A stretch of 31,455 nt of DNA from a virus: positions 1-31,455 of the IMG/VR virus record IMGVR_UViG_3300028595_000045; one strand, written 5' to 3'. Each line of letters starts with the position of its first letter. The first letter of the stretch is position 1. Shown here in pieces: positions 890 to 30,162 of this stretch. The notes beneath the pieces are model-generated. The model was not told the DNA's origin. It was given only the letters and a program-made list of their open reading frames with translations, and ran no database searches. The translations under genes were made by a program, and so were the position numbers.

Positions 890-898
890 CAGTTGAAA
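885..898 (+). repeat. Direct repeat GCTAACAGTTGAAA, copy 2
   Basis: Exact 14-nt copy of 148-161. It contains the TAA stop of the preceding gene and its last two bases form the start of the left arm of the integrase leader stem. Confidence 0.7.
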
Positions 899-960
899 AC
901 TCCCCCTATATATAGTAACTCCCAAAATTGTCATGACAAACAATTTAATGGGGGGAGTTT
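897..960 (+). promoter_or_regulatory. Integrase leader: stem sequestering the Shine-Dalgarno
   Basis: AAACTCCCCC (897-906) and GGGGGAGTTT (951-960) are perfect inverted repeats of 10 bp. The right arm contains the only good Shine-Dalgarno (GGGGAG, 952-957) of the integrase ATG at 965. Nested in the loop are AAATTGT (925-931) and ACAATTT (940-946), and the 12-bp palindrome TTGTCATGACAA (928-939), which could be a dimer operator. The stem would hide the ribosome site in RNA; whether a protein or small RNA opens it is not visible here. Confidence 0.6.
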
Positions 961-964
961 CTTT

Positions 965-2062
965 ATGTCCGACTTGGGGCGCATTAGGCGCAAAAAAACC
1001 AAAAAAAGTTCAACGGGTTATACTTATTGTATAGACCTGGAATGGCAGGGGAAAAAGCATCAGTTCTCAAAATACGGGGGAAAGCATCGTTGCGAAACGC
1101 TTCAAATGGCTGAAGCTTTGAGGCGCGACATTAACCGTGAAATCGAAATGGGGATATTCAACCCTCTCAAGTACCGCAAATCATCACCGCTTTTAGTTCG
1201 GGAATATTTTAAAATCTGGATTAAGGCCCAGGCGCTTGAATGGGGGACCGAATACGATTACAGGAATTCATTCAATAATCATATCATCCCTGTTATTGGA
1301 GACGAATACATAACCGATCTGAACAAGGCCAAGCTTCAAGATTTAATGAAAAAAATCAAACGGGAGCCAAAAGGCAAAAAGAACGTCATGTCTGCATTGA
1401 AAACAATGATGCGGGATGCATGGCAGTCTGGACATATCCAACAGATGCCGTTTTTCCCTGAATTCAAAGGTAAAAACAAGATAGTTGAAAAAGAAATTGT
1501 TTGGATGTCCGAGGAAAATCAATGGAACGTAACCAACAAAATTCCCGAAAAACACAAGCCGATATTTATTTTCATGAAATTAACCGGCTGCCGGCCGAGT
1601 GAAGCAAGGGCGTTTAGAAAAACAGATATCAAAGACGATCATATCATTATAGCCAAAACCTTTGGCAGGGCGAAAAAAGGGAAGGGTGAAGAACTGAAAG
1701 ACGTTAAATCCAAAAAGGCCAGAGCGTTTCCTCTAACGGACGCATTGAGACAATTGTTTGCTGATTCGCCTGTTTATTTAAGTGAGTTTAGATTCCCGAA
1801 TCCGACAACAAAAAGACCGTATTCAAAGAACATTAACAAGATTTGGAACAAGGCAGTTAAGGACGCAGGGCTTGAATATGTGTCTCTAAATAATTCCATG
1901 CGACATTCTATGGGATGCCAGTTATTAAACAACCACCATGCGGATATGGAGGTTGTAAGACGGCTGTTAGGACATACAACAACCAAAATGACACAAAGAT
2001 ACGCTCAACACTCGACTGAGGCGTTGGGGGAGGTTTTGAATAATGTCCAGAAAATTAGGTAG
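965..2062 (+). CDS. int: Tyrosine recombinase (phage integrase)
   Basis: A 365-residue site-specific recombinase that would catalyse attP x attB integration. Residues about 1-70 form a basic N-terminal arm-binding-type region; about 75-170 are the SAM-like core-binding domain (VREYFKIWIKAQALEWG, then LNKAKLQDLMKKI); about 180-365 are the catalytic domain. Active-site candidates are Arg210 in LTGCRPSEAR, a Lys near 250 in VKSKKARAFPL, Arg313 in NSMRHSMG, His337 in LLGHTTTKM and nucleophile Tyr346 in QRYAQ. The first residue of the HxxR motif is Asn310 instead of His. The ATG at 965 is chosen over the upstream TTG at 893 because of the Shine-Dalgarno GGGGAG 7 bases before it. The tRNA-Ser attachment core lies about 790 bp downstream. 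Confidence 0.95.
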   Translation: MSDLGRIRRKKTKKSSTGYTYCIDLEWQGKKHQFSKYGGKHRCETLQMAEALRRDINREIEMGIFNPLKYRKSSPLLVREYFKIWIKAQALEWGTEYDYRNSFNNHIIPVIGDEYITDLNKAKLQDLMKKIKREPKGKKNVMSALKTMMRDAWQSGHIQQMPFFPEFKGKNKIVEKEIVWMSEENQWNVTNKIPEKHKPIFIFMKLTGCRPSEARAFRKTDIKDDHIIIAKTFGRAKKGKGEELKDVKSKKARAFPLTDALRQLFADSPVYLSEFRFPNPTTKRPYSKNINKIWNKAVKDAGLEYVSLNNSMRHSMGCQLLNNHHADMEVVRRLLGHTTTKMTQRYAQHSTEALGEVLNNVQKIR

Positions 2063-5144: not shown

Positions 5145-5336
5145 TTAATAAACTCCCAATAAGAGCCCCTTTTTTCTGTTGACCGGGACGGCTGCCGCGC
5201 CTGGATCAATACCAGAATAAATACCAATCACATGCATTCGGTCATTGTCATCTATTGTTCCGTCCGGTTCCGGCATTGCTGTCGGTATCGGTAATCCAAT
5301 TGCTGACCGTCTTTTATTTTCTGTGTCAACTGCCAT
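5145..5336 (-). CDS. Small conserved phage structural-region protein
   Basis: A 63-residue protein, MAVDTENKRRSAIGLP..., with PEPDGTIDDNDRMHVIGIYSGI in the middle. This short type recurs in phage virion modules, where the middle segment (P-DGTID..DR.H..GIY.GI) is the conserved part; its role is unknown. The start overlaps the preceding stop by one base (TAATG), and it is followed immediately by the coiled-coil membrane protein. Confidence 0.7.
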   Translation of the reverse strand: MAVDTENKRRSAIGLPIPTAMPEPDGTIDDNDRMHVIGIYSGIDPGAAAVPVNRKKGLLLGVY

Positions 5337-5905
5337 TAGTCACCTGATGCGAATGTCCCTCGCGTAAATTTTGTTCCGTCATCACTAATCGTTGATGTGT
5401 GGTCTTTATTATCACCGGCATCATTATAAACGTGGATCTTTGTTGCTGTGACCTCGATTTTATTTCTTAAAAATTTGTAGATGTAATCAAGTTTTGTCAT
5501 GGCGTCCGGGTTTGCTGGAGGCGCTGTGTCGCCGGGTTCACTTCGTGCGTCGTCTAATAATGATAGGATGTTGTCAATATCGGTCCCGTCGCCTGTTATA
5601 GTAAATCCGTAACAAATTCCACCCGTATCTGAATCCACGGTTGCTTGAATATAAACAGTGTATGATTTACCCACTTCAAACCCATTTGCCGCAGTGCAAG
5701 CAATCGACTCAGTATAAAAACCCGTCGTGTCGTCGTCGTCTAATTTAGCCATTTCCCCGGTTAAAATAGGGGGGTCGGTTTCTTCCTCATATACTCTGTA
5801 TGCCGGGGCCGCATCCGCATCAGTCAAAACCCCTGTGTCTGGATCGTGGGTACATATCGAGAAAACACAGTTTTTTTCCAATTCAATTACTGATGGACAT
5901 CCCAT
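5336..5905 (-). CDS. Probable tail/fibre structural protein
   Basis: A 189-residue protein. Residues about 10-110 form a beta-sandwich-like domain (PAYRVYEEETDPPILTGEM, TTGFYTESI, GKSYTVYIQATVDSDTGGICYGFTI) of the type at the N-termini of phage baseplate or fibre-support proteins. About 115-160 is a helical linker containing LDYIYKFLRNKIEV, and the C-terminus has repeated small strands (THVYNDAGD-like, TISDDGTKFTRGTF). The start directly follows the previous stop (TAAATG). Together with its neighbours it looks like a virion attachment or fibre-assembly component. Confidence 0.65.
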   Translation of the reverse strand: MGCPSVIELEKNCVFSICTHDPDTGVLTDADAAPAYRVYEEETDPPILTGEMAKLDDDDTTGFYTESIACTAANGFEVGKSYTVYIQATVDSDTGGICYGFTITGDGTDIDNILSLLDDARSEPGDTAPPANPDAMTKLDYIYKFLRNKIEVTATKIHVYNDAGDNKDHTSTISDDGTKFTRGTFASGD

Positions 5906-6100
5906 CTATTTATCCTCCCGGAATTCTCCGCAAAAATCGTTTATGTCAACCAGGGGCCACCCCCCGTAATATTTTCCTTTATTCGCAAACACCACCGGCT
6001 TATGCTTCCGACAATACCCAAGGTCTTTATTCTCCAACTCGTCTAATGTTTTGTGCTGGTTATCAAACCACAAGCACCTATGACATCTATGTCCAATCAT
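5906..6100 (-). CDS. Small four-Cys metal-binding phage protein
   Basis: A 64-residue protein with Cys6, Cys9, Cys30 and Cys57, and His33 near the third Cys, in the order CHRC, GYCRKHKP, WPLV, DFCGEF. Phages often encode small proteins of this shape that probably bind zinc or an Fe-S cluster; the role is unknown. It is translationally coupled (ATGA) to the GalNAc-transferase-like gene upstream, so it is the last gene of the modification cassette. Confidence 0.7.
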   Translation of the reverse strand: MIGHRCHRCLWFDNQHKTLDELENKDLGYCRKHKPVVFANKGKYYGGWPLVDINDFCGEFREDK

Positions 6101-7023
6101 TTTTCATCCTCATGCCAATCTGGAATTGGCTTGAAATGGTCAATTATCCACGATAATGGCCTAACCGCCTTATCCCATTTGTCTTGATTCCAAAACTCTT
6201 GTGAATATTTGCGGGCATGGTTTATTTGTTGCTGTGAGATATCATATGGGAACGACCCATCACCCCCAAAGGCACCTCTAAAATTACCGGTTCTAAACAT
6301 ATGCCCGAACCATGTTTTTTTGGTAGTGATCATCTTTCCACCGGAAAGCCATGCCTTACACGCCAACTCGGTGCCAAACTGCCCCCATGAACCATGCCCG
6401 TTATCCATGCCGCCCAATTCGAAAAATCTCTCTCTAAGCATCAAAAAACATGCCCCTATGCATGACATGGTTTCAATTAGTTCTCCCTGGCACCTACGAA
6501 CATGCTTGCGCCAATATTGAAACTGCAAGTTTCTATCAAACCGCCATGAATAAGTGACCTTGTTCCCTCTCGGTTCCCACACAATTTTCATTTCATGGTC
6601 AGTGTTCCCGCATTTGCATTTATCCGGTTTTTTGCCCTGGTATGTGCGCTTTTTGCATTCGGTGCATTCCCAATCAAATGCATGGAGATTCCACATTTTA
6701 GGAATCATCGTCCAATCGGGTTGACAGTCTGCCATCATAATCCGATCAAAACCTTTACCCACAGCACAATGAGCGTCTAATTTCATAATGTATTTTGCTT
6801 GTGACAGCCGTGCGCCTTCGTTGGTTGCTTCACGCTGTCCAACCGGGGATGTATGATGGACAATCGTAACTCGGGGGTGATCGTTAATCGGTGGGGCTGG
6901 CCAGTACCCATCACATATGGCTATGATTTCCGTATCCGCTTCTATGTTCTCTAAAACATTATCAATCGTTTGTTTTAGGAATATTTCATTTCTCGCGGGT
7001 ATAATTACGCTTAATTCTCGCAC
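6097..7023 (-). CDS. Polypeptide GalNAc-transferase-like glycosyltransferase
   Basis: A 308-residue GT-A fold enzyme. SVIIPARNE (5-13) is the nucleotide-sugar strand. KLDAHC (81-86) gives a DxH metal motif (Asp83, His85), like the LDSHC/LDAHC of polypeptide GalNAc-transferases (CAZy GT27). GSWGQFGTELACKAWLSGG (211-229) corresponds to their WGGEN...WQCGG region, and His241 in FGHMFR matches their third metal His in VGHVFR. A four-Cys zinc-ribbon-like insert (C120, C123, C136, C138) breaks the catalytic domain. There is no signal peptide or lectin domain, so it acts in the cytoplasm. GTG start; it overlaps the upstream glycosyltransferase by 38 bases. Other GT2 specificities remain possible. 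Probable target: the SSTP-rich fibre encoded upstream. Confidence 0.82.
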   Translation of the reverse strand: MRELSVIIPARNEIFLKQTIDNVLENIEADTEIIAICDGYWPAPPINDHPRVTIVHHTSPVGQREATNEGARLSQAKYIMKLDAHCAVGKGFDRIMMADCQPDWTMIPKMWNLHAFDWECTECKKRTYQGKKPDKCKCGNTDHEMKIVWEPRGNKVTYSWRFDRNLQFQYWRKHVRRCQGELIETMSCIGACFLMLRERFFELGGMDNGHGSWGQFGTELACKAWLSGGKMITTKKTWFGHMFRTGNFRGAFGGDGSFPYDISQQQINHARKYSQEFWNQDKWDKAVRPLSWIIDHFKPIPDWHEDEK

Positions 7024-7759
7024 GTTCAGCCCTTTTTTGTTTGTTGGTTAATCTGCCTATATTTCTTTCGCGCGTTAAATTATGAAACAGCCCAAACGGG
7101 TTATAATCTTTATCCCCGCAATATTTCCCGTTCGGAATCATATAAATGGTTGGTTTTGTCTCATCCTGAAGAATGGATATTTCCCCCTTGTCCTCCAATG
7201 CTTTGAGCTTGGCTTTTAGGGGTACTTCCTCCCGGTTGGGATACTTACCTGTTCCAACATACCTTGTGTCTACACCGCCCAATCTAAGAAATAATTCCCG
7301 CTCCATAATATACGAATTGCCATGCGGGGCTATTTGCAACTTATCTCGATTAAACCCATACGCTCTTAAAACATCCCAATCTTGAGTAAACCTTCCTTTT
7401 TCGTCTATAACAGCGACCTCACGCTTGAACCGCACCACATCATATTTACAGTTTCTTGCTGTGTTAATAATCTCTTGTGTGACGATATGGTCAATATCTG
7501 TTAAAATTAAAAACTCACCCTTGGCTTGTTTGGCCCCGAAGTTTCGCGCCGCTGGTTGTGTCCACGGTCTAAAATCGTTTGTTTGGAACAGTCGGAAGCT
7601 GAAATTTATATCCAAACCATCCATATCAAGTGGCGGGTCTGATCCGTCATCAACAAAAACAACCTCCACATCGTCAGGTAAATTCATCCTGTTATAATGA
7701 TATATCTGCCTTTTTGCTACTTCAGGACTGTTTAGGATTGCATTAACAATTGAAATCAT
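6986..7759 (-). CDS. GT2-type glycosyltransferase
   Basis: A 257-residue GT-A glycosyltransferase. VEVVFVDDGSDPP (31-43) is the donor-binding Asp motif, QPAARNFGAKQAKGEF (68-83) the characteristic family-2 helix, and LILTDIDHIV (84-93) the DxD-like metal site. MERELFLRLGGVD (152-164) is the conserved acceptor-side segment. The C-terminus is strongly basic. The true start is the ATG at 7759, which overlaps the methyltransferase stop (ATGA); in-frame codons farther upstream only shadow that gene. It lies between the methyltransferase and the GalNAc-transferase-like gene, so it may extend or start the same glycan. Confidence 0.85.
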   Translation of the reverse strand: MISIVNAILNSPEVAKRQIYHYNRMNLPDDVEVVFVDDGSDPPLDMDGLDINFSFRLFQTNDFRPWTQPAARNFGAKQAKGEFLILTDIDHIVTQEIINTARNCKYDVVRFKREVAVIDEKGRFTQDWDVLRAYGFNRDKLQIAPHGNSYIMERELFLRLGGVDTRYVGTGKYPNREEVPLKAKLKALEDKGEISILQDETKPTIYMIPNGKYCGDKDYNPFGLFHNLTRERNIGRLTNKQKRAERARIKRNYTREK

Positions 7760-8355
7760 GGCTTCACCCAAAATGCTGTCGGTTCTAATTCCTTTGTTAC
7801 ATACCAAGGCCGTATGTCGTGACAAAAAGTATACGAATTCACAGCCTGAACAACTCCCGACCACCCGAACGCATAATAATCATGGCACCCAACGATCCCG
7901 CCCGGACGAACTTTTTTAGACCAAAAAATTATGTCCGGGGCGATGTAATCATACTTATGGTTTCCATCTATATAGACAAAATCTAATGATTCATCATCAA
8001 AGTCGCTTAACGCATCCATACTCGCTTTGCGTATCAAGGTTGCATTGTATGGAGATAGATTCGTTTTGGCTTCTTGATATATTTTTTCCTGTTTAGACAA
8101 TGGATATTTAGGGTCATAATCGTTCCAAGGATCAATACAATATAGTTTTAAATTAGGGTTGCACTTGCATAATTGTATGCTGTACCGGCCCCGCCTTACA
8201 CCTATTTCAGCGCCTTTATTATATTGCAATTCTCCCAATAACTCCGCTAAATGGTTTCGGTTGTATCTCCGTCCCGCTCCAAAGGGGAGGTTATCTACCC
8301 GCCGCTTAACATGAAACTTTTCTCTGATTCGCCTATGTAACTCTCGTCTATCCAT
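7756..8355 (-). CDS. Class I SAM-dependent methyltransferase
   Basis: A 199-residue Rossmann methyltransferase of the Methyltransf_24 type. GAEIGVRRGRYS (48-59) is motif I for SAM, LYCIDPW (71-77) holds the acidic residue that binds the ribose, DFVYIDGNHKYDYIAPDI (125-142) is the motif typical of sugar-linked methyltransferases, and VRPGGIVGCHDY (149-160) is the late loop. The start overlaps the mucin-like gene by 8 bases, and the stop overlaps the next glycosyltransferase (ATGA). Members often O-methylate sugars or are found with glycosyltransferases; I infer glycan methylation. It lacks the motifs of DNA methyltransferases. Confidence 0.85.
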   Translation of the reverse strand: MDRRELHRRIREKFHVKRRVDNLPFGAGRRYNRNHLAELLGELQYNKGAEIGVRRGRYSIQLCKCNPNLKLYCIDPWNDYDPKYPLSKQEKIYQEAKTNLSPYNATLIRKASMDALSDFDDESLDFVYIDGNHKYDYIAPDIIFWSKKVRPGGIVGCHDYYAFGWSGVVQAVNSYTFCHDIRPWYVTKELEPTAFWVKP

Positions 8356-10159
8356 TTATGATTTGTCTCCCTGTAACTAAACTATTGATTCCATTCGCTG
8401 AAATTATCGGTATAGCCGCCGCTGACCCCGCGCTCGGCGTACTACTCGGCGTTGAACTCGGTGTACTGCTTGGTGTTGAACTCGGTGTTGAACTTGGTGT
8501 CGAACTTGGCGTACTACTCGGCGTTGAACTCGGAGTTGACGACGGCGTACTTGACGGCGTTGAACTCGGGCTTGGTGTTGACGACGGAGTGCTTGATGGT
8601 GTCGACGACGGTGTTGAGCTTGGCGTCGAGCTCGGCGTACTTGACGGTGTGCTTGATGGTGTTGAGCTAGCCGTTGCCGTTGGCGTAGAGCTTGGTGTTG
8701 ACGACGGCGTACTGCTTGGCGTCGATGATGGTGTGCTACTTGGTGTTGAGCTCGGGCTTGGCGTCGAACTTGGTGTCGACGACGGTGTTGAGCTTGGCGT
8801 ACTGCTCGGTGTTGAGCTCGGTGTTGAACTTGGTGTTGATGACGGGCTCGGTGTGCTCGAAGGCGTACTTGACGGTGTACTCGATGGTGTAGAACTTGGT
8901 GTTGAGCTTGGCGTACTGCTCGGTGTTGAGCTCGGGCTCGGAGTTGACGACGGTGTAGAGCTTGGCGTTGAACTCGGAGTACTTGACGGCGTTGAACTCG
9001 GTGTTGAACTTGGAGTGCTCGACGGGCTCGGAGTTGATGACGGTGTACTTGATGGTGTAGAGCTTGGGGTGCTACTTGGCGTACTGCTCGGAGTACTCGA
9101 TGGCGTACTTGATGGTGTTGAGCTTGCCCCTCCAACCTCAATTTCAAAAGCCCCAACATCATAATTCGTATTCTGAGGTCTGCTCGTATCTACGATATCT
9201 GTCGTACCTGATATCGTCATTCCCTCTGCTGTTGCAGTAGCGTGAGCATCTTGAGCGTCGTTGTACGTATTGTCCTGTAAACGGTAATCCTCTGAGCCGC
9301 TTGCTGTCTCCTCAACGATTACCCAATCGCCGTCAGACGATTTAGAGTTATCATCTGTTAGATTATGAGATGCGAGGTTTCCTGCACCGCCGGAGTCTAC
9401 TGCTGCAATTGAGTTATCAGAATCTATGCAGTAGGAGATGTTCCATGCAGGGGTGCCAATATATGTTTTATAGTCGCCACCATCTGCATGACTGCCCATA
9501 CTGATAGTGTTAAAGCAATTTACTGTGATAGCGAGATTAGACTCAGCAATATTTATTCCACCACCCTCAAGTTCCCCTTCCGATCCACAGTTGATAATAG
9601 TACAAGATCGAACGTCAAGATCCCCGGTGCCGTTACCGCCCGAATAATTTTGGTAGTGTACGCCAGCACGTTGAAAGTTGTAGATAATACACTCACACAC
9701 AGATATACCAACACCGATATTCGCGATATACACGCCGTCCTGATCTGCTGTACTGTCGCCTGAATGTAATAAGCATTTTTCAACAGTAACAGTTGCACCA
9801 ATATCCGATATACGAATACACTCATCAGATGTTCCGGTGCTGGCCTGCTTAATGTCCAGTCCTCTAATCGTAACCCCGTCACCCGTTGTTATCTCGATGC
9901 AGTGATCACCATTGGTTGAACAGTAAAGTCTATAGTGAGTAGGTGAGCCAGATTCATTAGCATAGCCAGGATGCAACGAATCTCCGATACACTCGATCGT
10001 TAGGTTATCATCGGCAACAGTAACATTCGCAGTGTCGGGATTCGTCCACTCACCGGATATCTGTATGGTATCCCCAGCATTTGCGTTATCACACGCCTCG
10101 TCAAGCGTATCGTAATCATATGTTGGTGCGCCGGATTCGCCGACTGTGATAGTTGCCAT
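8348..10159 (-). CDS. Beta-helix fibre with mucin-like SSTP-repeat domain
   Basis: A 603-residue protein. Residues 1-345 are a right-handed beta-helix (pectin-lyase-like) domain with repeating short strands such as DTIQISGEW, NLTIECIG and VTIRGLDI. Residues 346-575 are 54 copies of SSTP interrupted by five SP pairs (Pro379, 409, 439, 469, 531) and one TATA (494-497). The last 28 residues are a small non-repetitive tail. About 160 Ser/Thr residues, each near Pro, make a mucin-like O-glycosylation substrate. No signal peptide, as expected for a virion protein. It directly follows a 175-aa gene (TAAATG), and the methyltransferase and both glycosyltransferases follow with overlaps. Likely receptor-binding or head/tail fibre. 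Confidence 0.8.
   Translation of the reverse strand: MATITVGESGAPTYDYDTLDEACDNANAGDTIQISGEWTNPDTANVTVADDNLTIECIGDSLHPGYANESGSPTHYRLYCSTNGDHCIEITTGDGVTIRGLDIKQASTGTSDECIRISDIGATVTVEKCLLHSGDSTADQDGVYIANIGVGISVCECIIYNFQRAGVHYQNYSGGNGTGDLDVRSCTIINCGSEGELEGGGINIAESNLAITVNCFNTISMGSHADGGDYKTYIGTPAWNISYCIDSDNSIAAVDSGGAGNLASHNLTDDNSKSSDGDWVIVEETASGSEDYRLQDNTYNDAQDAHATATAEGMTISGTTDIVDTSRPQNTNYDVGAFEIEVGGASSTPSSTPSSTPSSTPSSTPSSTPSSTPSSTPSPSSTPSSTPSSTPSSTPSSTPSSTPSSTPSPSSTPSSTPSSTPSSTPSSTPSSTPSSTPSPSSTPSSTPSSTPSSTPSSTPSSTPSSTPSPSSTPSSTPSSTPSSTPSSTPSSTPTATASSTPSSTPSSTPSSTPSSTPSSTPSSTPSSTPSPSSTPSSTPSSTPSSTPSSTPSSTPSSTPSSTPSSTPSSTPSSTPSAGSAAAIPIISANGINSLVTGRQIING
8435..9124 (-). repeat. 690-bp coding repeat, 12-bp unit (SSTP)
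   Basis: Fifty-four 12-bp units encode SSTP. The protein repeat is almost perfect, but the DNA is not: Ser is written with both TCN and AGY codons, and all Pro and Thr wobble bases vary between units. Four SP interruptions are exactly 30 codons (90 bp) apart at 9025, 8935, 8845 and 8755; the fifth is at 8569. Antisense frames here give spurious long open frames rich in LGVELG. Confidence 0.9.
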
Positions 10160-26755: not shown

Positions 26756-27068
26756 TGTTCCCCCCCTTTACCATCTGCGCCGCCAACTCTCGCGCCCGCT
26801 GTTCAATCAATGCTTGAGGGTTAAACTGCCCGCCAAGAAAAGCCTTTTCCCGTGTGGCTTCTTCTCTTTTTCTGAGATACGCCATAATCTCCTTGGCTTC
26901 TTCGGGGCTGGCCAATGTCAGCATGTCCGAAATAAGTTCGTTGGCCGCTTCCGCTTTGGCCCTGAACTCAATAAGTTGTTGGGGTTCAATGGCATAATCC
27001 TTGGCAATTAACGCCCTGGTGCCGTACTCCTTTACACGGTCTAAAACTTTTTTAAGACTGATTCGCAT
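26748..27068 (-). CDS. Small helical head protein
   Basis: A 106-residue, helical, Ala/Glu/Arg-rich protein (VLDRVKEYGTRALIAKDYA, FRAKAEAANELISDMLTLA, LAAQMVKGG). The ATG lies inside the last codons of the portal gene behind GGGGAGGAC, so translation is coupled. Likely a head assembly component between portal and scaffold; no family recognised. Confidence 0.6.
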   Translation of the reverse strand: MRISLKKVLDRVKEYGTRALIAKDYAIEPQQLIEFRAKAEAANELISDMLTLASPEEAKEIMAYLRKREEATREKAFLGGQFNPQALIEQRARELAAQMVKGGNNG

Positions 27069-29097
27069 TTGATGTCCTCCCCATCATCATGGTTTCAATC
27101 GCTGGCTGAATCATCTTTCTTTTGGTTGATTCAACCACCTGATCCAATAGTTTCCTGTCTTCTAACGGGCCTCCCTGTTGGCCCTCTACTTGTCTTTCTA
27201 TTTCTTGCCTTTCGATGTTTGATTGTGCTTCGCCTGCGATCTCCTGGCGTCGCTGTTGTGCCATTTTGTTTTGCATGTATTGCTGGATAACTTGCGGCAA
27301 TTCGGGTGCCTGCTGCATGGCCTGGATGACCGTCAGCATGTTGGGTTCAATGTACTCGTCCGGCTTCTTCTTCCCGTATGATTGAAGAACGTCTTGAGTG
27401 AGCTTGTGTAGATTGATAATCGGATTGCCGCCCATTAATTGAGTGAGTTCAACCTTTTCTTTTCTATTGAGCATCTTGTTTGCGGATGCATCGGAGACTT
27501 GAACCCTAAAGTCGTAATTTCCTTGGATTGAAAGGGCGTCTAACGGCTCAAATACCCATTTGTCATCCTCAAAGACCCGTTTTTTGGCATCTAAGGGGAG
27601 GTATTGAGCATACAAAGAATGGATATCTTTTATTAATCCGTTGAATTGATCCCTTAAAGCAGACCCTTGGTATTGGTGCTTGATATTTCCTTCTTGTACG
27701 ATCAGCGCCATACCTGAATAGGTTTCCCCGCCCTTGGCGGCAGTGTTGGATTCTCTGCCTAAAGTATAATCCGACAGGCACAGCATACGCTCGAAAAACG
27801 AAAGGAGAAGTTCTATAAATGTAATAAATTGCTGCTGCGCCTGATCGAATCTCGGAATTGTTACGCTTGCACCTTTTGGGACAGGAATCCCCTTGCCAGG
27901 TATGAGCGTCATGTCTAACGACTCGTAGCCTGGAAAATCGCCTTGATTGTAAAAAAAGAACGGGAGTGTTTTTATTGTGGCAGAATCAACCATTGAATTA
28001 AATAAGTCATCCACACCGGTGGAATAGTGCATTATTTTTGTTGGGATGCCGACACCCATAGATTCATTGGATTCAGGGAAGATTCTAAACCGTCTTACGG
28101 GTTTCCGTCCGTGCCAATAAACCTCTGACATGGGTTGTCTGCGGATCTCTTTAAATCCCGCATCAACCGCAAAGCTAACAATCGTCCATTCGCCATCCCA
28201 TTTCACATAGCACTCTAAGACCTGGACCTCTTGGGAATAGTCAGAATATCTAACTTCTTTCCGTTCCGCATCCTCATCCATGTAATCAGCAGTTTGGCGT
28301 CCGTCCGTGGATGTTATCTGCTCTAAGTTCTTATAGGGTCCGTTCTCGCCGGATAATGATTTTAATTCCCTCAGTGTCGGCCAGATTCGTCTTAAATATG
28401 GTTGTTCTTCAAAGTCGTCTCCCGTGTCAGGGAAGAAACAGTCATTTAAGTTGACCATCTCTAAGTGAACCTTGAATTCAGACTCTCTTTTTTCTTCAAA
28501 GGTATCTTTCTCTCCGGCGGGCATGATGCCAAACTGCTGTAAGAATTGAGGCCCGAACTGTTGTAAATACGGCATGACAGATTCATAGGGGATTTCGGTC
28601 CCGTCTGCCCGCATGAACACCGGCACGGTTCTTCTGATCTTATTGATTTTTACTTCTTCTCTCCAAATGGGGATGACGTCTTTTGTGCCATCCAGCAATA
28701 AATCATGTATAAACGGCTTAATAACAGCCTCAATATCGACGTTGTTATGCAGCGCCCAATGGAGAAAATTCTTAACGCCCTGAGTTTTTTCAACATCTTC
28801 CGGCCCCGTGGGTATAACTTGGATAAACTCATCCTCTGCAATGAGTTGGTTTTTTATTCTCGGTTCTAAGTTGTCAACGGCGATTGCTTCCAAGCCCATT
28901 GTCTTATTCGAACAGCCCTCCCAAGGGAATGTTTTCTTAGGGATATCGCCGTGATACCGTTTTCTTCCGTCGTTGATTTCTTTTAGTTTTCTCTGCCGGT
29001 AAGATGAACTGGAATACTCGTTAAACAGATTGTAGCAATAGCTTTCTATCCCTGTTAGAACTTCTTTCTTCTCGGTCTGTTCGAGTTCGAGTTCCAT
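27052..29097 (-). CDS. Portal protein
   Basis: A 681-residue protein consistent with podovirus portals (P22 gp1 is 725 aa). N-terminus YCYNLFNEYSSSSYRQRKLKEINDGRKRYHGDIPKKTFPWEG, then VEAVIKPFIHDLLLDGTKDVIPIW, the crown-side HYSTGVDDLFNSMVDSATIKTLPFFFYNQGDFPGYESL, and a Gln-rich helical barrel tail (QQYMQNKMAQQRRQEIAGEAQ). Start immediately follows the LamG gene (TAAATG). It forms the ring at the vertex through which DNA is packaged and ejected. Confidence 0.88.
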   Translation of the reverse strand: MELELEQTEKKEVLTGIESYCYNLFNEYSSSSYRQRKLKEINDGRKRYHGDIPKKTFPWEGCSNKTMGLEAIAVDNLEPRIKNQLIAEDEFIQVIPTGPEDVEKTQGVKNFLHWALHNNVDIEAVIKPFIHDLLLDGTKDVIPIWREEVKINKIRRTVPVFMRADGTEIPYESVMPYLQQFGPQFLQQFGIMPAGEKDTFEEKRESEFKVHLEMVNLNDCFFPDTGDDFEEQPYLRRIWPTLRELKSLSGENGPYKNLEQITSTDGRQTADYMDEDAERKEVRYSDYSQEVQVLECYVKWDGEWTIVSFAVDAGFKEIRRQPMSEVYWHGRKPVRRFRIFPESNESMGVGIPTKIMHYSTGVDDLFNSMVDSATIKTLPFFFYNQGDFPGYESLDMTLIPGKGIPVPKGASVTIPRFDQAQQQFITFIELLLSFFERMLCLSDYTLGRESNTAAKGGETYSGMALIVQEGNIKHQYQGSALRDQFNGLIKDIHSLYAQYLPLDAKKRVFEDDKWVFEPLDALSIQGNYDFRVQVSDASANKMLNRKEKVELTQLMGGNPIINLHKLTQDVLQSYGKKKPDEYIEPNMLTVIQAMQQAPELPQVIQQYMQNKMAQQRRQEIAGEAQSNIERQEIERQVEGQQGGPLEDRKLLDQVVESTKRKMIQPAIETMMMGRTSNANQS

Positions 29098-30162
29098 TTA
29101 TCCGAATTGCCACCCAAAAGTTAAATCGGTTGCAGATGTCGTTTGTTCGTTTACGCACTTGACCCTTAACGCTACGTTCCGGCAGTTCTGGAGATATTGG
29201 GTCAAATCGTAGAACGTCCCCCCCGTAGTCGTGCCGGTTAATGTAAGCGTGTTTCCTGTCACTGGATCAATCAACTCTGCCCAACCGGGATAACCCTTGC
29301 CCATCAATGTGTTGTAGTTGTCCAAAACCTCGGCCGCAGATAGAGCCTTGTTGTAAATCCTTACAAAATAGATCGTGCCTGTGAGACAATCCCCCGCTGT
29401 ACGTGCCGCGTCGCCCCCGATACTGAGCCGGTTGCTTGCCCCGGTTGCTGGTAAGATTGTTTTTTCTTTTGACGAAATGTCGGTGGTTGCGTTGCTTGCG
29501 CCGTCAATGTAGGTAACGAGGTTCCCGTCTCGGTCGAATGAACACACAATGTGCTTAATCTCGTCATCTGCAATGTCTGTTGCGCCCTCTTGAGCCACTT
29601 GCCCGTCTGCGTCCTCGATGTGAACGTCAAGATATTCGTTGGCGTCCAATTGAAGTTGCCAGCCCACGCCATCCGCGCCCGTTCTACAAGATATGATAGT
29701 ATCACCCGCACCACCGGAGCCTGATGTTAAATCACACACAACCTCCACTGAGAAATCCCCCGTTGTCGGGAGAATCCCCGCAGGAATGTCTTGAACCAGC
29801 TTGTCAAACGCGTCCCCGGTGCCGTCGAACGCCAAACCGTTTCCCAATCCGGCTGTATCGGCACTCTCTTGGAATGTCGGGTTGCCCTGTTCGGTCATCT
29901 GGACGTTATTGACTTGATCGGTAATAGTATTTCCGTCCGCATCATCCATCCGCATTTCAAACACCACGTTGTTCGCCGCGTATCCTCCAGGGGTAGCGGG
30001 GTAGTTAAACGCATGATTTAATGGGGATATTTCAATATTGATTTCTGTCGCGTCGTTGACTTTCGGGATATGTAATCCGGCGACTTTAGCGCCAGGCGGG
30101 ACAGTGACCGCAGGAGTGACATATCTATCTCCGTTGGTGGTCATTGTTTTTTTAATAATCAT
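29098..30162 (-). CDS. LamG-like domain nested in a virion beta-sandwich protein
   Basis: A 354-residue protein. N-terminal part (VTVPPGAKVAGLHIPKVND, about 15-45) and C-terminal part (NTLTLTGTTTGGTFYDLTQYL ... NVALRVKCVNEQTTSATDL) look like two halves of one small phage beta-sandwich. Between them, residues about 65-280 form a concanavalin A/LamG-type jelly-roll (FEMRMDDADG, GNGLAFDGTGDAF, GDFSVEVVCDL, GVGWQLQLDANEYL, FVRIYNKALSAAEVLDNYN). LamG domains bind sugars or surface proteins. Start behind GGAGGC; placed between terminase genes and portal, an unusual site for an adhesin. Confidence 0.75.
   Translation of the reverse strand: MIIKKTMTTNGDRYVTPAVTVPPGAKVAGLHIPKVNDATEINIEISPLNHAFNYPATPGGYAANNVVFEMRMDDADGNTITDQVNNVQMTEQGNPTFQESADTAGLGNGLAFDGTGDAFDKLVQDIPAGILPTTGDFSVEVVCDLTSGSGGAGDTIISCRTGADGVGWQLQLDANEYLDVHIEDADGQVAQEGATDIADDEIKHIVCSFDRDGNLVTYIDGASNATTDISSKEKTILPATGASNRLSIGGDAARTAGDCLTGTIYFVRIYNKALSAAEVLDNYNTLMGKGYPGWAELIDPVTGNTLTLTGTTTGGTFYDLTQYLQNCRNVALRVKCVNEQTTSATDLTFGWQFG

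Follow-up and report, generated by a model that had tools for sequence, protein, structure and literature searches.

A phage cassette that probably O-glycosylates its own mucin-like Ser-Pro repeat protein, and the recurrence of its GT27-like enzyme with such repeats in uncultured viruses

The IMG/VR virus record IMGVR_UViG_3300028595_000045, analysed here over its full 31,455 bases and called the window, carries a cassette of overlapping genes in which a protein with a long array of SSTP repeats is followed by a methyltransferase and two glycosyltransferases, the second of which resembles the polypeptide N-acetylgalactosamine transferases (GalNAc-transferases) of family GT27. We consider it likely that the phage uses this cassette to O-glycosylate its own mucin-like Ser/Thr-Pro-Ser array protein, and the glycan of the array is probably methylated as well. 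This reading draws on the order of the genes, a GT27-like sequence and fold with a conserved metal site, an association between the enzyme and Ser-Pro arrays that holds in both directions, and fusions of the enzyme to methyltransferases. The system is real, recurrent and testable, and is a new form of self-glycosylation in phages, one whose acceptor resembles mucin. Its genes, with positions in the window, are as follows.

8348..10159, minus strand: array-bearing protein of 603 amino acids; presumed acceptor, presumed fibre or spike
8435..9124, minus strand: SSTP array of 54 units, residues 346-575; presumed O-glycan acceptor
7756..8355, minus strand: S-adenosylmethionine (SAM)-dependent methyltransferase (PF13578 Methyltransf_24, 1.8e-18); presumed glycan O-methyltransferase
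6986..7759, minus strand: GT2-type glycosyltransferase (PF10111, 3.3e-8; PF00535, 7.5e-6); presumed chain extension
6097..7023, minus strand: GT27-like glycosyltransferase of 308 amino acids (PF00535, 4.1e-11); presumed initiating enzyme

The array gene overlaps the methyltransferase gene by 8 bases (8348-8355), the methyltransferase gene overlaps the GT2-type gene by 4 (7756-7759, with the GT2-type start ATG at 7759), and the GT2-type gene overlaps the GT27-like gene by 38 (6986-7023). A preliminary description of this DNA, made from the letters alone, had given these same overlaps and had named the three enzymes in a way that the Pfam matches bear out.

That description had also guessed at a GT27 resemblance from motifs, and comparisons of sequence, profile and fold now back the guess. 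When the 6097-7023 product was compared by phmmer with all PDB sequences, the top matches were polypeptide GalNAc-transferases, led by GALNT7 (1.5e-8) and followed by fly PGANT9 and GALNT1, 10 and 2, and a profile built from 12 relatives matched GALNT2 at 2.6e-11. An AlphaFold model (12-sequence input; predicted template modelling score, pTM, 0.82) was searched against the PDB with Foldseek, a structural check proposed at the outset; all of the top 50 folds were GalNAc-transferases (E 4e-13 to 6e-11), with no unrelated GT2 fold among them. Judged by sequence and modelled fold, the product is GT27-like.

The motifs LDAHC, WGQFGTEL (first written WGxxGTEL) and GHMFR were all located in this product, and the roles once assigned to them survived in part. 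Scored on a 41-row alignment (A2), D83-A-H85, H241 and R244 (of HxFR) are invariant across 41 viral sequences, and D83, H85 and H241 correspond to Asp209, His211 and His344, the metal ligands of mouse GALNT1 (PMC4202792). The DxH site and the third metal His are therefore conserved as described, but WGxxGTEL is not the WGGEN of GT27 enzymes and its Glu is absent. Eukaryotic GT27 enzymes (GALNT2, GALNT7, Toxoplasma GalNAc-T3) share with the viral enzyme the GT-A fold, the DxH, third His and HxFR residues and, presumably, a Pro-flanked Ser/Thr acceptor, and they supply its top sequence and fold matches. The viral enzyme differs from them in being about 18% identical over the fold alignment, in having no lectin domain and a replaced WGGEN Glu, in carrying a Cys-rich insert in most members, and in being linked to Ser-dominated arrays. 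This CxxC...CxC insert lies inside the glycosyltransferase domain (residues 120-138, window positions 6610-6666), has a weak NCBIfam match to a rubrerythrin-like zinc-ribbon and is found in most family members (C120, C136, C138), with one subgroup lacking it. Many of these phages also encode a second GT27-like paralogue that keeps DAHC but reads HLHKG or HWHKT where the window's enzyme has HMFRT (L053:4202-5419, L056:5438-6157 and L077:6251-7468, L numbers being loci).

The presumed acceptor consists of a beta-rich N-terminal part of about 340 residues, the SSTP array and a 28-residue C-terminal tail. A recount of the tetrapeptides in the 8348-10159 minus-strand product gave exactly 54 over 230 residues (346-575), as first reported. 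These 54 identical peptides are spelled by 37 different 12-mers, and the mean nucleotide identity among units is 0.623, compared to 0.614 when codons are shuffled within each residue. Codon identity at this random synonymous level implies that the peptide was kept while the DNA drifted; this speaks for selection acting on the SSTP peptide and makes recent slippage less likely. Under the usage in which a mucin-like domain is a long Pro/Ser/Thr-rich tandem repeat with selection at the peptide level, the SSTP array is such a domain. In the first 340 residues, the best NCBIfam match was choice_anch_Q at 6e-4, under the family cut-off, and neither Pfam nor the PDB gave a match; a search of IMG/VR found no relatives of the N-terminal part, and the predicted structure of the protein (predicted local distance difference test, pLDDT, 36) was too poor for use. 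The beta-helix label given earlier to this region is weakly supported. A fibre or spike of the virion is the most likely identity of the protein, and this assignment is the weakest step of the proposal.

A search of viral genomes for the enzyme together with such repeats had been suggested as a further check, and it revealed a strong, recurrent association in diverse viruses. IMG/VR contains 217 stretches encoding relatives of the enzyme, the best 80 of which were retrieved. With an array defined as an open reading frame (ORF) containing a 40-residue stretch of at least 70% Ser/Thr/Pro, arrays were present in 62 of 89 relative loci versus 2 of 80 random viral-contig loci (Fisher 5e-22), corresponding to 7.6 versus 0.3 array ORFs per 100 kb. 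After duplicates were removed by clustering the enzymes at 70% identity, 49 of 63 clusters had an array, which lay within 3.5 kb in 40. Among loci of at least 10 kb, using a looser Ser/Thr criterion for both sets, the counts were 70 of 81 versus 2 of 52 random loci (Fisher 3e-23). The nearest array was on the enzyme's strand in every case, at a median gap of 2.0 kb.

The association also held in reverse, when viral records were chosen by a DNA pattern for arrays and then searched with the enzyme profile. The enzyme family was found in 5 of 9 records with long S-x-S-P-S arrays, four of them scoring 1e-109 to 1e-140 and the fifth (L513) 2e-33. Records with other arrays, mostly Thr-Pro, yielded 1 match in 87, which was weak and confined to the general N-terminal part, and 50 random viral records yielded none. 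An initial TCN-only Ser-Pro pattern had returned mostly short or spurious frames along with 5 true long arrays, and an SSTP-spaced pattern retrieved chiefly Thr-Pro arrays, another class without the GT27-like enzyme.

Composition separates the two classes. In enzyme-linked arrays Ser follows 95% of the prolines, and the arrays of 62 of 66 loci are rich in Ser, whereas most of those drawn by an S/T-neutral pattern (72 of 82) are rich in Thr; across the enzyme family, arrays are dominated by Ser and not Thr. The enzyme thus pairs with one type of repeat, a preference that would not follow merely from a shared position in a tail region. The arrays predict an acceptor rule of Ser or Thr, Pro, Ser, which makes the system directly testable, and their composition predicts a preference for Ser-Pro-Ser over Thr-Pro-Thr that could be assayed with the peptides SSTPSSTPSSTP, SPSASPSA and TPTATPTA. 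Thr-Pro (TPTxTPT) arrays are themselves very common in viral contigs (L338-L415, L470-L577), where no GT27-like enzyme accompanies them, and far outnumber Ser-Pro arrays in the S/T-neutral sample; they may be modified by some other enzyme.

In a BLAST-level test, the window's portal was recognizable in only 1 of 50 relatives' records, which suggests that the enzyme family spans diverse viruses; shared virus ancestry was considered as a cause of the association and, by that same BLAST-level count, is unlikely. Among 84,980 prokaryote genomes there were only four convincing relatives, all on contigs of metagenome-assembled genomes, and a tblastn search of 50,697 annotated phage records with the window's enzyme returned no match. 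With the relative from L092 as the query, weak partial matches appeared in two unannotated faecal phage records. One of the metagenome-assembled contigs (L095) has long ORFs that resemble phage head and portal genes, by appearance and without a family search.

The other enzymes of the cassette recur with the GT27-like enzyme. Relatives of the window's methyltransferase occur in 75 of 94 enzyme loci but are absent from all 80 random loci and all 56 Thr-Pro loci, and relatives of its GT2-type enzyme occur in 31 of 94; at least two GT27-like ORFs are present in 55 of 94. Some phages encode the GT27-like enzyme as a fusion with an RMNT_CmcI O-methyltransferase, and in five GT27-like paralogues the fusion partner is a methyltransferase similar to that of the window. 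Such fusions imply a shared product, so the methyl group is most likely placed on the glycan, which strengthens the earlier suggestion that the glycans are possibly methylated. Further neighbours include a DegT-type sugar aminotransferase, a UDP-sugar dehydrogenase (UDP, uridine diphosphate), a sulfotransferase, a MUCI70-like enzyme and radical-SAM enzymes, all of which point to elaborate glycans.

In the scheme that we propose, where we deduce which sugar is donated, which residues accept it, in what order the steps run, where in the virion the product lies and what it is good for, the array protein would be co-transcribed with the enzymes and, once translated, modified in the host cytoplasm. 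There the GT27-like enzyme would put the first sugar, probably an N-acetylhexosamine from a UDP-sugar, on Ser/Thr of the repeats; the GT2-type enzyme would then lengthen the glycan, and the methyltransferase would methylate a sugar hydroxyl, capping or protecting it. The outcome would be a stiff, densely glycosylated stalk, most likely on a virion fibre or spike, and this glycan-rigidified stalk could bind or shield.

No system with this exact pairing was known to the preliminary description, and our literature search, outside which most subscription papers lay, likewise found no paper that pairs a GT27-like phage enzyme with mucin-like arrays. An analogue does exist in Corndogvirus, a cluster O mycobacteriophage with an O-methyltransferase and three tandem glycosyltransferases (PMC4351075) that modify its capsid and tail tube, according to PMC11600133 and PMC12619734, which cite Freeman 2023. 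Compared through gp33-gp36 of Firecracker, the two cassettes are alike in having overlapping genes, with a methyltransferase of the Methyltransf_24 class followed by tandem glycosyltransferases, and the window's set sits in a structural operon. They differ in that the Corndogvirus enzymes have no detectable homology to the window's beyond the broad families Methyltransf_24 and Glyco_tranf_2_2, the Corndogvirus cassette is placed between the portal and protease genes, and PMC4351075, PMC11600133 and PMC12619734 report no Ser-Pro array as its substrate. The Corndogvirus enzymes act on the phage's own virion proteins, as is proposed for the window cassette. The window cassette appears to work like the Corndogvirus system, and sequence comparison detects no relationship between the two beyond those broad families. 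Firecracker gp35 (L583), whose GenBank product name is polypeptide N-acetylgalactosaminyltransferase, was tried as an orthologue and rejected (hhalign probability 7%; no GalNAc-transferase match in the PDB), and this label is not supported at the sequence level.

One alternative, which we regard as fairly unlikely, is that the enzymes glycosylate other virion proteins, such as the capsid or tail tube, and that the arrays are flexible linkers sharing the fibre region by chance. Corndogvirus offers a precedent, Thr-Pro array phages without the enzyme demonstrate that arrays can exist alone, and some enzyme relatives have no array. The association, however, is close by and specific for Ser-Pro-Ser in both directions, and co-location in a fibre region would not select Ser over Thr. 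Likeness to GalNAc-transferases that act on peptides also suits an array substrate, and the precedent comes from enzymes to which the window's have no detectable homology. Serotype conversion, in which a temperate phage would alter host lipopolysaccharide, teichoic acid or capsule and so block superinfection, appears quite improbable: the cassette genes overlap one another inside a structural operon, their Pfam matches include no membrane flippase or membrane-anchored glycosyltransferase domain, and conversion predicts neither GalNAc-transferase similarity nor Ser-Pro arrays, even though serotype-converting glycosyltransferases are common among temperate phages and this phage encodes an integrase (893-2062). 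That a low-complexity repeat protein lies by chance beside unrelated sugar enzymes is scarcely credible and largely refuted by the association and its reverse test; low-complexity arrays can expand neutrally, but here codons are randomized under a constant peptide. It is also very improbable that the glycosyltransferases act on phage DNA bases. Phages do encode diverse DNA-hypermodifying glycosyltransferases (Pyle 2024, cited in PMC12619734), but the GT27-like fold, the association with arrays and the position in a structural operon argue otherwise, and the annotated part of the window holds no base-modification gene.

Several points weigh against the self-glycosylation of the array protein that we favour. 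WGGEN with its Glu is a hallmark of GT27, as is visible in aligned GalNAc-transferase chains, and the viral enzymes have F, V, M or Q at the position of this Glu, with W213, G214 and E219 kept. GT27 enzymes also carry a C-terminal ricin-type lectin domain (PMC4202792), for which Pfam gave no match in the 308-residue viral enzyme, which stops after the catalytic domain; many relatives bear another extension, of no assigned family. With both features missing, we call the enzyme GT27-like and not proven GT27. Eleven relatives on loci of at least 10 kb (about 14%), several of them fragments, have no detectable array, and 4 of the 9 S-x-S-P-S records, all 10-28 kb long, lack the enzyme. Finally, we infer both the glycosylation chemistry and the presence of the array protein in the virion.

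On balance we also favour a wider reading, that mucin-type O-glycosylation is widespread in uncultured tailed phages and uses a largely virus-specific family of GT27-like initiating enzymes, with further enzymes dedicated to extension, methylation and sometimes sulfation. The coat would cover Ser-Pro-Ser arrays in phage proteins that otherwise have nothing in common, forming a counterpart of mucins in viruses of prokaryotes that needs no secretory pathway. Known mucins and mucin-like viral glycoproteins share with these proteins tandem Pro-Ser-Thr repeats and dense O-glycosylation, which is predicted here, but depend on the eukaryotic Golgi pathway, in contrast to a bacterial-virus protein served by phage-encoded enzymes. 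Phage self-glycosylation is known from a few mycobacteriophages, on capsid and tail tube; here, in many uncultured phages, a dedicated enzyme family like the initiators of animal mucins goes with repeats that would be its dedicated acceptor. Should the chemistry be borne out, mucin-like proteins would need neither Golgi nor secretion, a simple and soluble pair of enzyme and acceptor would be available for producing mucin-like glycoproteins in bacteria, and the long Ser-Pro repeats of viral metagenomes would gain an explanation.

Some cassettes of this family contain enzymes of other kinds. Radical-SAM enzymes lie within phage glycan cassettes at L021:8699-9985 (B12-binding) and L052:8844-9710, and another, judged from sequence appearance alone, at L093:8775-9992. 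A conserved domain of 220-290 residues (YYTxN, ISVSxKP, E-x-D) is fused to or located beside many GT27-like enzymes (L005:8916-9776 and L054:5134-5808; alignments A3 and A4); it has no Pfam match and no PDB sequence match, and looks like an undescribed glycosyltransferase family. There was also a GT2 match to Tetraselmis viruses.

Elsewhere in the window are the following features.

893-2062, plus strand: integrase
5336..5905, minus strand: downstream neighbour with no assigned function; matches in 9 loci, the window itself counted
5906..6100, minus strand: small ORF sharing 4 bases with the GT27-like gene; same-order relatives in L002 and L015
23856-24761, minus strand: Mu-gpT-like major head protein
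27052-29097, minus strand: SU10-type portal
29098-30162, minus strand: protein with a Laminin_G_3 (ConA-like lectin) domain, adjoining the portal gene

A long structural operon runs leftward in the window, with the glycosylation cassette at its distal end; together with the integrase, head protein and portal, it indicates a temperate tailed phage, whole or in part. The 29098-30162 product is possibly a second sugar-binding virion protein.

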